From positions 6,362,001 to 6,426,000 of the forward strand of contig NZ_CP120717.1 in the NCBI RefSeq assembly GCF_032883915.1: a stretch of 64,000 nt of DNA, read 5' to 3'. Both the position numbers and the translations under genes were made by a program. The notes under the pieces were generated by a model that saw only the letters and a list, made by a program, of their open reading frames with translations, did not search any database and had not been told where the DNA came from. Positions 15,561 through 54,437 of the stretch are shown here, in pieces. The stretch's first letter is position 1. Every line of letters starts with the position of its first letter. The stretch comes from Endozoicomonas sp. 8E. GTDB lineage: Bacteria; Pseudomonadota; Gammaproteobacteria; Pseudomonadales; Endozoicomonadaceae.

Positions 15561-15615
15561 TAATAAGTGGTTGACTTTGAATCCACTTTTTGAATAATAA
15601 GCCTCAGGTTTCTCC

Positions 15616-15980
15616 GGGGGCGATCTGGATTCGACGACGGTTACGAAACCTTAGGTGCATGTCGAGAATGTAGTGATTCTCGTAAATCAAAACACTACAA
15701 CCTTTTAGTTGCTAACGAAGACAACTTCCAAGGAGCTCTGGCAGCTTAAAACCTGCCTACTCCCGGTCACTCTGACTTGCCTGTTGGCTGGAAATGACCG
15801 CTACTGAAAACAGGATCGCCTTGATGTCTGCCTGGGGCTGACAGGTTAAACTTTTCAGGATCGCGCAGTGTCACCCTGACCGTTGGGTCGTTCTGCGTTA
15901 ACCTAAAAACGGAATCTAAACATGTAGAGCCGAAGGCGGAGAATCGGCGGACGCGGGTTCAATTCCCGCCGCCTCCACCA
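15616..15980 (+). ncRNA. ssrA: Transfer-messenger RNA (tmRNA), copy 1
   Basis: The 5' end GGGGGCGATCTGGATTCGAC pairs with the 3' CGCCTCC before ACCA to make the seven-pair acceptor stem. The T arm is CGGGTTCAATTCCCG. The tag reading frame resumes at GCT (15711) and runs to TAA at 15749, coding ANEDNFQGALAA, with the usual ALAA protease-recognition end. The typical TAGT sequence precedes the resume codon. Length is 365 nt. It rescues stalled ribosomes with SmpB. A second, different copy lies at 53982. Confidence 0.97.
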
Positions 15981-25691: not shown

Positions 25692-26960
25692 TTACAGCCT
25701 GAAATCCTGATGCAAGTTTTTCCAATGCTCTGTTAACTTTTCTTTGTGTTTCACATTCATCGGAAGTTCTTTAATAGTGGAATGCCACAATGTTCGGGCC
25801 CTAAACATTACATCTTCTAAATGAGGCCTTACTGCCCGCCATGGTATGCCCGATTTTTCTGACCACGCCTTGAAATTTGAGAATGACACAGCATACCAAT
25901 CTTTTATTTTTCCCAAATTCAAAGCAAAGTTTCGCTCCCCGTCGATATACACATTTGTCGTTACTATGTCATAAGCAGGAGATAGCCTTGGTGTCACCTT
26001 GTCTTCGTATAAAAGACTCCAGTTTTTTAAATGCGCATCACCATTTGCCAACAAAATATTCACTAACAGTCGTCTTGCAAACTGCTGTACATCTGTTAAC
26101 GCATCACCAGAAAACTGGTACAGGACCCTGGCAATCTGTTCATAGTTTGCGGTGTGATATTTTTCATGGGGATACTTCACCAATACTTGCGCGAAGTCTT
26201 CCATATGAACTCGCCTGCTTTTTTTTCGATCAAAACGCTTTATCGCAAAAGCAAGGGATTCTTCAGGTAAATTGATTTGTGGCAGGTTATCCAACTGTCC
26301 CATATCAACCAGCTTGATTTCCGGTATTTCAATACCTGCTATGGATGCCAGTGTCATCGCCGTATATTCATTAACAGGAACATCTTTATATTTTGTTGAC
26401 GGCGTTTTTATAATCCAATCACCTAAAACCCCGGAATTAGAAAGGTTATAACGCCCATCCTTTTCTTCCATTGAAAACTTCATCTGAACGCCTGCCAGGG
26501 AAAATTTATTCTCTCGTTCTAATTTTTCGAACTTAACCACTTTCGCATTTCGATAATGACCTCTGGAAATAAGGGATACAATATCATCAGGTACGTCTTC
26601 TGGCTCTAATGGTGTGGCAATGATTGCTCCGGGCAAATCTTCCCCCAGATAAGAGAAGATTTGAAATTCATTATCAACATGCACCTTTAATCCCTGTGCA
26701 ATGAGTTCTCGTAGCGATCCTTCTGGCAATAAATTTGATAACGTTGGATGCAAGCGTTGATTTCGTGCCCAAGGCTCTGACATCAATTTATCAGAATGAG
26801 GGAATGCAGGATGAGTGATCAGGCTAAACGTTGACCGATGAACATTACTGGTAAATTCATCGGCAAAAAAAAGTACATTCCTGCCGCTCTGGTAGCCAGC
26901 CAAATAGCCCACGCACTCTCCGTGAAGCGTCAGCTTAATGACGTTGACATCGTTGCTCAC
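25692..26960 (-). CDS. hipA: HipA-type serine/threonine kinase toxin
   Basis: The 422-residue protein has the HipA N-terminal subdomain (ending near LPGAIIATPLEP), then the kinase core. The core shows FSLAGVQMKFSM, a Lys in GDWIIKTPSTKYKDVPVNEY, the catalytic loop LLVNILLANGDAHLKNWSLL and the metal motif LSPAYDIVTT. HipA kinases phosphorylate glutamyl-tRNA synthetase or other translation factors and cause growth arrest unless bound by HipB. All key residues and the length are normal. The start overlaps the hipB stop by four bases. Confidence 0.93.
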   Translation of the reverse strand: MSNDVNVIKLTLHGECVGYLAGYQSGRNVLFFADEFTSNVHRSTFSLITHPAFPHSDKLMSEPWARNQRLHPTLSNLLPEGSLRELIAQGLKVHVDNEFQIFSYLGEDLPGAIIATPLEPEDVPDDIVSLISRGHYRNAKVVKFEKLERENKFSLAGVQMKFSMEEKDGRYNLSNSGVLGDWIIKTPSTKYKDVPVNEYTAMTLASIAGIEIPEIKLVDMGQLDNLPQINLPEESLAFAIKRFDRKKSRRVHMEDFAQVLVKYPHEKYHTANYEQIARVLYQFSGDALTDVQQFARRLLVNILLANGDAHLKNWSLLYEDKVTPRLSPAYDIVTTNVYIDGERNFALNLGKIKDWYAVSFSNFKAWSEKSGIPWRAVRPHLEDVMFRARTLWHSTIKELPMNVKHKEKLTEHWKNLHQDFRL

Positions 26961-29080: not shown

Positions 29081-29126
29081 TAGAGTAGGGAACGTGTTCC
29101 TGTAGACAGGTTACCGTTTCCACCGG

Positions 29127-31022
29127 GTAGAAGGAGCTACCAATTGTAGCTCCAACCCCCTCAGATCCCGGCGTGCGGATTTCCCGCACCGGGCTCTTCG
29201 ATATTTGACTCACAGCACAGCCATGGATTTCATTGCCATAAAAGGCAGCATTATCCTCGGTTTCTGTAGCGGCAGAAGCTGCTTGAGGTTATGGTACTTT
29301 TCCCATGGAATCTTGCCTTTCCGGCATCGGCTACACAGCATCTTGTACCAGTAGCGGTCAACAAACCGGTAAAGCTTCTCCATACTTCGGAAGTTTCCTC
29401 CCAGACCGTAATACGCATAATGCCCTCTCAACCGTCGATTGATCGCTGTCACTTGTTCGTGCAGCGGATCATGGCGTATTCGTCTCAGCAGTTCCTTCAG
29501 TTTGGCTATGCTGCGTCTTAGGCGGGATTTTTCCGTTCTCCTTCCCACCATGAAGTTTCCTTTCAGATTCCTTGTGCAGTAGTGCGTAAAGCCAAGGAAG
29601 TAAACCGTCTCCGATCGTCTTCCCCCACGACTGGCAAAACGTCCGAACCTGACTAACCGGGTTTTATCCGGCTCCAGTTTCAACGCAAATTTCTCCAGTC
29701 GCTGTGGCAGCACATTCATGAACCGCTCCGCATCACTGCGATACTGAAAACACACCACAAAGTCATCAATGTACCTGATCAGCCATGCCTCGCCTTTTAG
29801 CCGGGGCTTGACCTTGCACTCGAACCAGAGGTCAAGCACATAATGCAGGTACAGGTTGCTCAGAACTACGCTGATCGGCCCACCCTGAGGCGTACCTTCT
29901 TCACACTCTTGCAACTCCCCGGCCTCCATCACCCCGGCTTTCAACCAGCGCCGTATAAGGTTCAGAATTCTGGGATCACCGACCCGGTGTTCCACAAAAC
30001 GAAGCAGCCATCCATGGTCAAGACTCCCAAAGAAGTTCTTCAAGTCCGCTTCCAGCACCCAGCTGACCTTTCGGCCTGAAACCACCTCGTTAAAAGTGGA
30101 CAGGGCATGGTGCGCTCCCAGTCGTGGCCTGCCACCCATGGAACAGGGCAAAAAGTCCTGCTCATAAATAGCATTCAGCACATCAGCAACACTTCGCTGC
30201 AAAGCCCGGTCATTGATGCAGGGAACACCCAGAGTGGCGCTTTTCCTTTTTCCCCGGCTTGGGTATCCATGCCCTTTTGACCGGCGGTGCCTTGTAGCCT
30301 TGCCGATGGATAGACGTCAGTGTCTGTTGCAACCACCGCTTAAAGTCTTTCTTTGTCTCTTCGACAGTCAGCCCATCGACTCCGGGCGATGTGTTGTGTG
30401 GAATCTTGTTCAGATTCATACACAGGCTCGCCGGGGTAATATGATGTGCCAGACTTGTGAAGCGAAGTTTCGGATAACTCCGGGCTTTCGCTGCTACCCT
30501 CTCCAGTCCCGTTGCCATGGCTGGTTTACCTTCTCACTGCGTAAAAGACCGTAACTCCCTCAGATGTGGAGCCCATGTTTCCCTGGAAAGGCTCAAATAC
30601 CGCCAGCCGCTTCCCCATGTGACGGGCTCTCCCCGCCTCGGAGTACTATCAGCTGGTCTGACTTCCTGAACGTCATCAAGTCGTTCTTGCTTTACAGGCT
30701 CGTCGGACCCTACAGGCTCCGCCTGAACGTTCAGGATCTCCCTTGTTCACGTAAAATCATTCGATAACATGCCGTGGGTACGAACCCCGGAAGCAGTCGG
30801 GATGCCTTGTCATTAGCGGAGCTCCCGACTTCCGCTTTCCCCATTGAGAGAGAAGGTCAGCCACTTCAACCACGTTCAATTTCGGGGCTAATTATCCCTT
30901 AGCAGACGTTACGGCCTGTTATCACCCTGTCTACGCTTCGCAGTAGTCGTTACCTTCTACCACGCAAGACTCGGTACACGGCTGCCGACCACAGCTTTAC
31001 CGCGATGACCATTTCAGGTCAC
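29127..31022 (-). mobile_element. Group II intron (near full length, maturase broken)
   Basis: Read on the minus strand, the element begins near GTGACCTGAAATGGTC (about 31022). It has about 500 bases of structured 5' RNA, the maturase gene, and a domain V at 29196-29165 (GAGCCCGGTGCGG, GAAA-like loop, CCGCACGCCGGGAT). A domain VI-like hairpin (GGAGCTACaattGGTAGCTCC) ends near 29127. Domain V shape and the lack of an HNH domain on the maturase suggest the IIC or a related bacterial class. Boundaries are approximate. Confidence 0.75.
29210..30518 (-). pseudogene. Group II intron reverse transcriptase/maturase, frameshifted
   Basis: The N-terminal 102 residues (SPGVDGLTVEETKKDFKRWL and PVKRAWIPKPGKKEK) and the C-terminal 330 residues (ADLKNFFGSLDHGWLLRFVE, EGTPQGGPISVVLSNLYLHY, WLIRYIDDFVVCFQ with the catalytic YIDD, then the maturase X domain) are in different frames. 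The slip lies near 30215, where KRPLGVPCINDRALQ would be expected. The joined length of about 435 residues is normal for a maturase without an endonuclease domain. As sequenced it cannot be made in one piece, so the intron depends on a partner for mobility. Confidence 0.88.
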
Positions 31023-31039
31023 AAGATTTTACGCGCTTG

Positions 31040-31336
31040 CAAGGCGCAACCCCCTCCGAACCGTGCGTGCAGCTTTCACTGCACACGGCTCTCCATGCTG
31101 TTACGAGGACTGTACCTGTTGTCTGGCATCTTGCCAGCATGCAACAGATCATGGCATTCAACACAAAGTACGAGAGTTTTGCGATTTCTCGCTATCATGA
31201 GTCTTTGCCATGTTTTTGTACCATCATTAATGTCCTTTAGCTTGCGTACATGGTGTACTTCAAACTTTCCTTCAGTCTTGCCGCAATATTCACAGCGTTT
31301 TGCCAGCATTCTAGTAATTGGGGTCTGGGGCTTCAA
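31040..31336 (-). mobile_element. 3' remnant of a second group II intron with HNH endonuclease domain
   Basis: The frame to 31076 reads LAKRCEYCGKTEGKFEVHHV, then RKLKDINDGTKTWQRLM and RKTLVLCVECHDLLHAGKM. This is the C-terminal zinc-binding HNH domain of LtrA-type maturases (CxxC, HH, CxxCH). It is directly followed by a second domain V at 31091-31058 (GAGCCGTGTGCAGTGAAAGC, then GCACGCACGGTTC). The reverse transcriptase part is absent. It differs in domain V and in having an HNH from the adjacent intron, so it is a different lineage. The first intron starts within or just after its end. Confidence 0.8.
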
Positions 31337-52543: not shown

Positions 52544-53854
52544 ATGAAAAGATTGTTGCTGAAAAAACTGCTTGATTGGAAGCAAAGCCCCTCAAGAAAG
52601 CCTGTTCTGCTTGATGGTGCAAGGCAAACGGGCAAATCTTTTCTCCTTGAAACACTGTTCGGTGGACACTTTGAACAAGTCATACGCCTGGATTTTCTTG
52701 AGCAGCCCGGTTTGGCGAACCTGTTTGCCGACTCTCTCAAACCAGACGATATTATCACCAATATCGAGATTGAACTGAACATCAGCATTGACAGGCAAAA
52801 GGATCTCATCATTTTTGATGAGGTTGGAGAGTGTCTGGCGGCCCTTCACTCCCTGAAGTTTTTTGCTGAACAGTGTCCTCAAATGTATCTCTGTGCATCG
52901 GGGTCAAATATTGGTCTTCTGGATTCATTTCCTGTTGGTAAGGTGGAATGGCTTGAACTCTACCCACTGACATTTGAGGAATTCCTCCTGGCCTCCAATC
53001 AACCGCCTCTGGTTAAAGCTTTTGAACAAGTGAATCTGGGTAAGGTAGCTCATGAAAAGCTCTTCAGTTTGCTTATTGACTATTACTTTGTTGGAGGGAT
53101 GCCAGAAGCAGTAAAGGCCTGGTTTGAGGTTGATAAAGACATCACTGAAAGAACCCGGACAGTCCAACAAATACATGCTTCACTTCTCTCGGGCTATGAG
53201 CGTGATTTCGGAAAATACTCCGATAAACTTTCTGCACAACATATACAGGCAATCTTTAAAAATGTGCCAGTTCAGTTATCGAATACCATGGACGACTCGG
53301 TTAAACGGTTTAAGTTCAAAGACGTTTTAGAGAAAAAAAGTCGCTACAAAGAGCTGGCGGGCCCCATTAACTGGCTGGAAAATTGCCGACTGATATCCAA
53401 GTGTCACCCCATAGACTGCAAGCCTGACTCCCCCCTTAAACCACTGGCCAAAGAAAATATCTTCAAACTGTTTTTATTCGATATTGGCTTACTGGGACAC
53501 ATGCTGCAGATCAACTACAAGGAGCATCGGGATCAGAAGTATCACTACAAGGGTTTTATCGCAGAAAACTTCATACAAAACGAACTCATCACCCTGATCG
53601 GCAAGCCAACCTATTCATGGGAATACGCCAGAAGTGAAATCGAATTTCTGTATAAAACCGAAGCAGGTGACATAGTACCTGTAGAAGTAAAAAGTGGCAA
53701 AAGGACTCGAGCCAAATCGCTGCAAACTTATGTCCAGCGATATAGCCCAAATACAACACTCAAGCTGATTGGTTCAACAGGCTCACTGGATGACCCTGCT
53801 GCCAGGGTCCTGCCTTTGTATTACATTTCTAAAGTCAAAGAGATTCTGGGGTAA
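52544..53854 (+). CDS. AAA_14/DUF4143 ATP-binding protein
   Basis: The 436-residue protein has a Walker A loop (LLDGARQTGKSFLLETLF), Walker B (QKDLIIFDEVGECLAALHSL), sensor residues in MYLCASGSNIGLLD, and WLELYPLTFEEFLLA. Its C-terminal DUF4143 domain has a restriction-endonuclease-like core (FIAENFIQNELITLIGKPTY, IEFLYKTEAGDIVPVEVKSG with the D-x-EVK pattern). The family is widespread, frequently mobile and uncharacterised. Base content and the palindromic upstream region suggest an acquired gene. Confidence 0.92.
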   Translation: MKRLLLKKLLDWKQSPSRKPVLLDGARQTGKSFLLETLFGGHFEQVIRLDFLEQPGLANLFADSLKPDDIITNIEIELNISIDRQKDLIIFDEVGECLAALHSLKFFAEQCPQMYLCASGSNIGLLDSFPVGKVEWLELYPLTFEEFLLASNQPPLVKAFEQVNLGKVAHEKLFSLLIDYYFVGGMPEAVKAWFEVDKDITERTRTVQQIHASLLSGYERDFGKYSDKLSAQHIQAIFKNVPVQLSNTMDDSVKRFKFKDVLEKKSRYKELAGPINWLENCRLISKCHPIDCKPDSPLKPLAKENIFKLFLFDIGLLGHMLQINYKEHRDQKYHYKGFIAENFIQNELITLIGKPTYSWEYARSEIEFLYKTEAGDIVPVEVKSGKRTRAKSLQTYVQRYSPNTTLKLIGSTGSLDDPAARVLPLYYISKVKEILG

Positions 53855-53981
53855 TTTGGATAGCCGGACTTCTGTGCGCCAGGAGCTGCTGGAACAATAA
53901 GAGATGGGAGCGAGATATATAAAAAATTGTCTTACTTCTATAGATAGCCTATAACTAAATGATCCAATGAAGTTTTGATCC

Positions 53982-54397
53982 GGGGGCGATCTGGATTCGA
54001 CGACGGTATCGAAACCTTAGGTGCATGCCGAGGACGTAGTGGTTCTCGTTAATCAAAACACTACAAACCTTATAGTTGCCAACCTGGTAGCTCTTGGAGA
54101 CGCTCAAAACGACCTCTTCGATCAAGAAGAGTTCGCACTTGCAGCTTGATCGTAGCTAAACCCTACGAGTCTCCCAGTCTCTCCGGCTCGTCTGCTGGCC
54201 GGTTTTCGGACTGTCACCGTAAGTAGACTCGCGAGGCCCTGTATGCCTGTGGCTGGCCAGCTAAAACTTAACAGGATCGCTCAGTAGAACCCCGACCGCT
54301 GGGTCGTTTCTGAGTTAAATCCAAAGGCGGATCTAAGCATGTAGAGCCGAAGGCTGAGAATCGGCGGACGCGGGTTCAATTCCCGCCGCCTCCACCA
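53982..54397 (+). ncRNA. ssrA: Transfer-messenger RNA (tmRNA), copy 2, with a long tag
   Basis: The first about 95 bases (acceptor and D-like part, GGGGGCGATCTGGATTCGAC) and the last about 60 bases (GTAGAGCCGAAGG to CGCCTCCACCA) are nearly identical to copy 1. The middle is different and 51 bases longer. The tag frame resumes at GCC (54078) after TATAGTT and ends at TGA (54149), coding 23 residues that begin ANLVALGDAQ and end EEFALAA. Acceptor pairing and the T arm are intact, so the RNA can fold and be charged. It is transcribed as the gene before rimK. Confidence 0.93.
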
Positions 54398-54403
54398 ATA
54401 TAC

Positions 54404-54437
54404 AGCCCTGTGGATAATTGATCTGCAGGGCTTTTTT
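54404..54437 (+). terminator. Rho-independent terminator of tmRNA copy 2
   Basis: AGCCCTG pairs with CAGGGCT across a loop and is followed by six T, seven bases after the CCA end. The arrangement copies the terminator of the first tmRNA. Confidence 0.8.

Follow-up and report, generated by a model that had tools for sequence, protein, structure and literature searches.

The present data indicate that Endozoicomonas sp. 8E carries two complete tmRNA genes, the second of which, beta, is probably an old paralogue that arose by duplication within the Endozoicomonadaceae, has mostly been kept beside the first gene, alpha, and would act as a functional second tmRNA. In the window, that is, the whole stretch of 64,000 nucleotides analysed here, ARAGORN found exactly two tmRNA genes, both on the forward strand: alpha at 15616-15980, with the 12-residue tag ANEDNFQGALAA, and beta at 53982-54397, with the 23-residue tag ANLVALGDAQNDLFDQEEFALAA. 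The two names are labels by gene length, genes shorter than 370 nt being called alpha and longer ones beta. Both loci were matched over all 374 positions of the Rfam model RF00023, at 205.1 bits for alpha and 175.3 bits for beta against a gathering score of 47, and this covariance search, which the original prediction had proposed for both loci, bore out its two complete genes; the resume contexts, frames, stops and common tRNA-like ends were also as it had read them. The whole genome (7,377,917 bases in a single contig) gave 13 matches to RF00023, of which only alpha and beta exceeded the cut-off and the other 11 were of tRNA size, leaving no third tmRNA over the cut-off in this genome. A single SmpB (189.1 bits) was found in it. 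The terminators said to flank both genes were confirmed by scan for beta, 3' of which a terminator-like hairpin (54404-54432) is followed by a T run to 54438, whereas the scan returned none 3' of alpha, where a longer-looped hairpin and then a T run are visible by eye. Between the two genes lie, on the reverse strand, a HipA-like gene (25692-26960) and a stretch at 29122-31093 with a reverse transcriptase/maturase gene and two Intron_gpII (group II intron) matches separated by 1.8 kb.

Alpha and beta are paralogues. In this genome their identity is 97% over the tRNA-like end regions and 68% over the middle, and it reaches 84% along a stretch of 175 columns running from inside PK3 to just beyond the 3' end. 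The pseudoknots of the two genes are therefore related, contrary to the earlier reading that they had nothing in common; the strongest differences are in the tag frame and the helix 5 region. Family-wide, middle-part identity is 0.63 between alphas and betas, whether taken from the same genome or across genomes, whereas alphas compared with one another reach 0.785 and betas 0.765. That the tRNA-like ends are converted within genomes was considered and set aside, as the difference between pairs from one genome (0.908) and pairs between genomes (0.879) is too small to support the claim.

A secondary structure of 79 pairs in 15 helices was drawn for beta from the window's own sequence. It places pseudoknot 1 at 54029-54064 (drawn helices 4 and 5), pseudoknot 2 at 54175-54228 (helices 7-9), pseudoknot 3 at 54235-54275 (helices 10 and 11) and pseudoknot 4 at 54280-54330 (helices 12-14), and, in agreement with RF00023, the T arm, 3' acceptor strand and ACCA end of the tRNA-like domain at 54370-54397. 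Covariation was counted over 23 of the 33 betas (groups g1, g6 and g7), across which 96.5% of the drawn structure is paired. Pairs changed on both sides numbered 24, of which 18 fall in pseudoknots 2-4; shuffles gave 12.7, and none of 500 reached 24. By the number of further pair types the structure did not surpass the shuffles, 54 of 500 of which did as well. The covariation score was 0.210 against at most 0.056 when the structure was slid, a control over which the drawn fold is favoured because it was drawn from the window's sequence. Pseudoknot 1 is nearly invariant, being paired in all 23 betas with one compensatory pair. Helix 5 is 84% paired, most departures being unpaired positions, and these arise largely from the three g6 sequences, in which the hairpin is shifted. 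Pairing is 100% in both acceptor stem and T arm, and the third acceptor pair is G-U in all 23 betas counted; a G-U at this position is a mark of alanine identity. Pseudoknots unable to fold, which the original prediction had named as grounds for calling beta a pseudogene, were thus not what was found, since pseudoknots 2-4 covary in this subset. With this covariation, with complete genes of the beta kind in 33 family genomes, with tag frames that are open and end in A in all 33, and with a genome assembled as a single contig, it is hardly credible that beta should be a pseudogene or an assembly artefact.

The distribution of the two genes was followed through 57 genomes, 36 of them (the present one included) from the same family. 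Two-thirds of the family (24/36) possess a complete alpha of 365-369 nt together with a complete beta of 385-418 nt. One further genome (G033) has a complete beta of 384 nt and, located after smpB, an alpha cut off half-way and devoid of its 3' half including the tRNA-like end. Eight genomes have a single gene of the long kind (G010, G011, G012, G014, G016, G017, G021 and G023), with tags of 16-24 residues, four of them (G010, G011, G016 and G021) being assigned by length and not by descent; two copies are therefore not required. The beta kind is accordingly the sole complete tmRNA found in 9 of the 36 genomes, and must serve as such if these genomes, mostly drafts, are complete. Alpha alone was found in two drafts (G015 and G018), and one draft rated 96% complete (G013) yielded no tmRNA over the cut-off, though SmpB is present, and nothing tmRNA-like in a stretch of 8 kb around its smpB (L167). 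No remnant of alpha was seen in stretches of 3.4 to 8 kb beside smpB in G011, G012, G013, G014, G017, G023 or G057, a search limited in that alpha may sit further off, as it does, by 45 kb, in the window's genome. Left out of these counts were a second beta of G005 (also removed before the tree), the truncated alpha of G033, and G038, which passes the Rfam cut-off and has no ARAGORN call. One SmpB is encoded in each of 37 family genomes. An exact pattern derived from several betas was met at 19 places in the genome collection, a figure that counts exact matches only and perhaps leaves out the window's genome; the records are named Endozoicomonas, Parendozoicomonas and Kistimonas, which we take to be genera of the Endozoicomonadaceae, together with two “Oceanospirillales bacterium” and one “Salinisphaera sp.” The last of these, Salinisphaera sp. 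G21_0 (L149), carries beta under a genus name that is probably wrong. Judging by the record titles, corals, sponges and tunicates are among the hosts.

Outside the family a second tmRNA was found in 1 of 279 genomes of the order and in none of the 376 genomes examined from the rest of the class, in searches at E <= 1e-30 that scored three or four candidates per genome, five of the 376 being also in the order-level search; the same order-level search returned a second tmRNA in 8 of 14 family members. The tmRNA gene is therefore nearly always single-copy. The sole outside case (G104, L165, of another family) has two identical genes with the same tag, 2.2 kb apart in a 638-base near-perfect repeat near a contig end. 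Within the family, G005 has two betas with the same tag on two contigs (L047 and L048), one of them followed by a phage integrase; an integrated element may have duplicated beta once more here, unless the assembly has produced the second copy. Genomes with more than one ssrA are mentioned in print in a sentence, which, so far as the available text goes, concerns more than one copy, as here, and describes no diverged pair kept across a family. Two tmRNA types in one assembly, again as here, are recorded for Hydrogenivirga sp., for which the authors allow, in the portion of the article available, duplication, contamination or an assembly artefact; that case, unlike the present one, concerns one genome of the Aquificales, with 10-residue tags (PMC4227106). 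No published description of the Endozoicomonas pair was found in literature searched mainly outside subscription journals.

Descent was examined in a maximum-likelihood tree of 76 tmRNAs from which gappy columns had been left out. All family tmRNAs fall in one clade with support of 99/95. The free tree search did not resolve alpha and beta into one clade each, and the branches starred in the tree force at least two label changes for beta; holding alpha as a clade, or beta without G010 and G011, gave trees about 12 log units above the free search (p-AU 0.70 and 0.71), and holding all 33 betas as a clade cost 2.9 log units (p-AU 0.44). These p-AU values do not decide between the arrangements, and a single duplication within the family is compatible with the sequence data rather than established by them. 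The placement of the single copies of G010 and G011 with alpha or beta was left undecided by the tree, and those of G016 and G021 group with the g5 betas despite adjoining smpB. Certain groups, among them g7, g5 and G004/G006/G007/G009, are met among the alphas and again among the betas, which argues, with the common clade, against import of beta by a mobile element from outside. Such a replacement had been offered in the original prediction, and integrases do lie near some copies. However, plasmids, phages and viral contigs yielded no full-length tmRNA copy, the best matches extending over no more than 58% of the gene and one exact pattern being absent from viral contigs; we regard an outside origin as very improbable. 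Phage-borne tmRNA genes are known from mycobacteriophages and Bacillus phage G and, like beta, are additional to the usual ssrA, at least as described in the accessible part of the source, but they are phage-encoded (PMC4131195), whereas beta lies on the chromosome and clusters with the gene native to the family.

The place beside smpB is kept by alpha: the SmpB cluster lies near 25 of the 26 alphas, the exception being the window's genome, in which smpB is about 45 kb upstream. Both genes share one contig in 14 genomes, are 6-92 kb apart in 13 of these, and in 10 of the 14 beta is downstream of alpha on the same strand. The neighbours upstream of beta are common within clades and those downstream vary. 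Integrase genes follow beta at 43 bases in G035 and at 100 bases behind one G005 copy, and one follows alpha at 749 bases in G008, so that integration probably takes place at the 3' ends of the genes. The frequent position of beta, 6-92 kb downstream of alpha, also suggested the second copy as the boundary of an island integrated at ssrA; this reading was rejected, as it leaves unexplained why 24 genomes have, next to alpha, a gene that is both complete and diverged. The strongest rival to a dedicated role for beta starts from the same integrases. It proposes that the 3' ends of the genes are hit by islands and phages, that a complete second gene keeps rescue going, and that beta otherwise has no job while its tag drifts, nothing but the tag's end being of consequence; the integrases behind both kinds of gene, the varying downstream neighbours and the truncated alpha of G033, with its beta intact, would all fit. 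We judge it possible but rather unlikely, as the two sequence classes stay apart to the degree given above and as many betas share an upstream element unlike that of alpha. Directly upstream of beta in the window there is an AAA_14/DUF4143 ATPase gene (52544-53854), and members of the same ATPase cluster (c19) recur near tmRNA genes in G002, G006 and G009.

The promoter-like element upstream of beta reads TTGTCT-17-TATAAC in the window (53927-53955). Its general form, TTG-N3-N17-TATAA[AC], precedes 21 of the 33 betas and 0 of the 26 alphas, its carriers being all ten g1, all ten g7 and G019 (g6), so that it spans two groups and one g6 genome; the other 12 betas are without it, and the pattern was chosen after the sequences had been seen and its carriers are related. 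Its last base is A or C instead of the T of sigma-70 promoters, and a generic promoter scan, which accepts no other base than T in that place, found nothing upstream of the window's beta. That scan placed a sigma-70-like match, TTGACT-16-AATAAT, 5' of alpha at 15571-15598. TTGAC occurs in the same upstream stretch in 16 of the 26 alphas and in 3 of the 12 other betas (G014, G016 and G021), each of these three being the sole complete tmRNA found in its genome. The upstream elements of alpha and beta thus differ, and beta, with covarying pseudoknots 2-4 and a promoter-like element in most copies, looks functional. The suggestion in the original prediction of a second rescue RNA accordingly draws support, at the level of sequence, from this covariation and element, from beta's standing as sole complete tmRNA in nine family genomes, and from the single SmpB available to both genes.

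The main structural difference between the two genes concerns the stop codon of the tag. In the usual layout of one-piece tmRNA the stop codon lies in the loop of helix 5 (PMC1168896). Alpha conforms, with a tag frame at 15711-15749 (ARAGORN) ending in TAA within the hairpin found at 15740-15757. The window's beta departs from it: the frame at 54078-54149 (ARAGORN and tag survey), opened by the resume context TAGTT-GCC and comprising 23 codons and a TGA stop, ends GCT-TGA, and the hairpin TCGTAG-CTAAACC-CTACGA (54150-54168; hairpin search and drawn structure) follows directly, its loop retaining a relic TAA. The stop codon is within the helix 5 hairpin in 26 of 26 alphas and 14 of 17 genes outside the family, the other three of which also failed the hairpin test, as against 5 of 33 betas; in the remaining betas it lies before the hairpin (26) or overlaps its first base (2). 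The search for helix 5 was restricted, as the most stable hairpin close to the stop is often another helix. Among the five betas scored as inside, the stop is clearly kept within the hairpin in G010, G025 and G029, whereas in G008 and G012 the usual hairpin is nevertheless visible directly 3' of the stop. How the stop may have moved is suggested by G016, G021 and G027, in which a GCTGCYTAA segment occurs twice, at the tag end and in the hairpin, and by G011, in which a shorter segment, CTGCTTAA, is likewise repeated at both places; the doubled Ala-Ala-stop segment is probably the product of a small tandem duplication, by which the tag was released from pairing.

With its stop at or before helix 5, the beta tag would be free to change, which is the likely reason for its variability, although the three stops clearly inside the hairpin show that release from helix 5 accounts for long tags only in part. 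Alpha tags have 12 residues in 25 of 26 cases and 13 in one. Beta tags range from 13 to 28 residues, with 29 different sequences among 33, their starts being placed at the TAGTT-type resume context (set by hand in G010, G019, G022 and G027) and the ARAGORN tag being shorter than the one counted in G008, G031 and G034. The length of the beta tag is by itself not unusual, since the available portion of a review gives a range of 8-35 residues (PMC8012679). In the same order, the one tmRNA of G052 (L096) has a tag of 18 residues, AENVPMNDADWGTASLAA, which no other of the 17 genes read from outside the family exceeds in length, and its stop is still inside helix 5. Compared with canonical one-piece tmRNA (ssrA, RF00023, as in E. 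coli and alpha), beta shares the tRNA-like domain, resume codon, tag frame, helix 5 and four pseudoknots, and differs in the position of the stop in 28 of 33 cases and in its very variable tag.

The ends of the tags are more constant: A is the last residue in every one of the 33 beta tags and is preceded by another A in 29, the other four ending in KLA, MVA, LVA and AVA. A strict SspB-like motif, N[DE]xx[FYW], occurs in 24 of 26 alpha and 19 of 33 beta tags, and a looser form is present in all 26 alpha tags and in 29 of 33 beta tags, counts reached by 0 of 2000 shuffles, which leave the shared descent of the sequences uncontrolled. A gene for SspB is present in all but one of the 37 family genomes. 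The use of such tag motifs by SspB and ClpX is known from work in E. coli. It was initially supposed that the long tag might route products to another protease or adaptor, and the four tags without the AA end, together with the window's own tag, which has the SspB-like motif only in its loose form and off-spacing, would suit a fate other than ClpXP, whether another protease or slower decay. However, the AA ends, the loose motif in most beta tags and the near-universal SspB argue against the supposition as stated, and we consider such a fate improbable.

These observations allow the construction of a model for the origin and operation of beta. Beta would have arisen by duplication inside the Endozoicomonadaceae and mostly been retained next to alpha. 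Like alpha it would be charged with alanine and bound by the single SmpB, would enter ribosomes stalled on broken messages, and would have its tag frame and stop translated. The main structural change would have been the displacement of the stop from the inside of helix 5 to its start or before it, probably by way of the small tandem duplication of the Ala-Ala-stop segment, upon which the hairpin could keep its fold while the tag frame, freed from pairing, could grow, shrink and change in whole codons. What has been retained may be what proteolysis needs, namely the Ala-Ala end and, in most, the SspB-like motif, and beta-tagged proteins would still go mainly to ClpXP with SspB. The pair may persist through expression of the two genes under different conditions, in line with the condition-specific RNA that the original prediction had allowed, and a separate role and expression for beta are inferred from sequence. 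More tentatively, one SmpB could run two trans-translation RNAs, with beta separately regulated, its tag diversified under selection, and the ordinary tmRNA displaced by it in several lineages; we hold this fuller account to be a fair possibility rather than a probability.

A long-lived, family-wide pair with one SmpB would amount to a natural experiment on the purpose of the tag and of helix 5. Beta offers a tmRNA with its stop outside helix 5 that has been kept across genera, and a tag that varies between relatives by as much as 13 to 28 residues while its end stays nearly fixed. The questions thereby opened are whether helix 5 depends on the stop codon, what in a degradation tag is indispensable, and whether a cell is able to choose between two tags. 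If the reading of two working RNAs is true, the same stalled ribosome in these bacteria could receive either of two degradation tags, depending on conditions.
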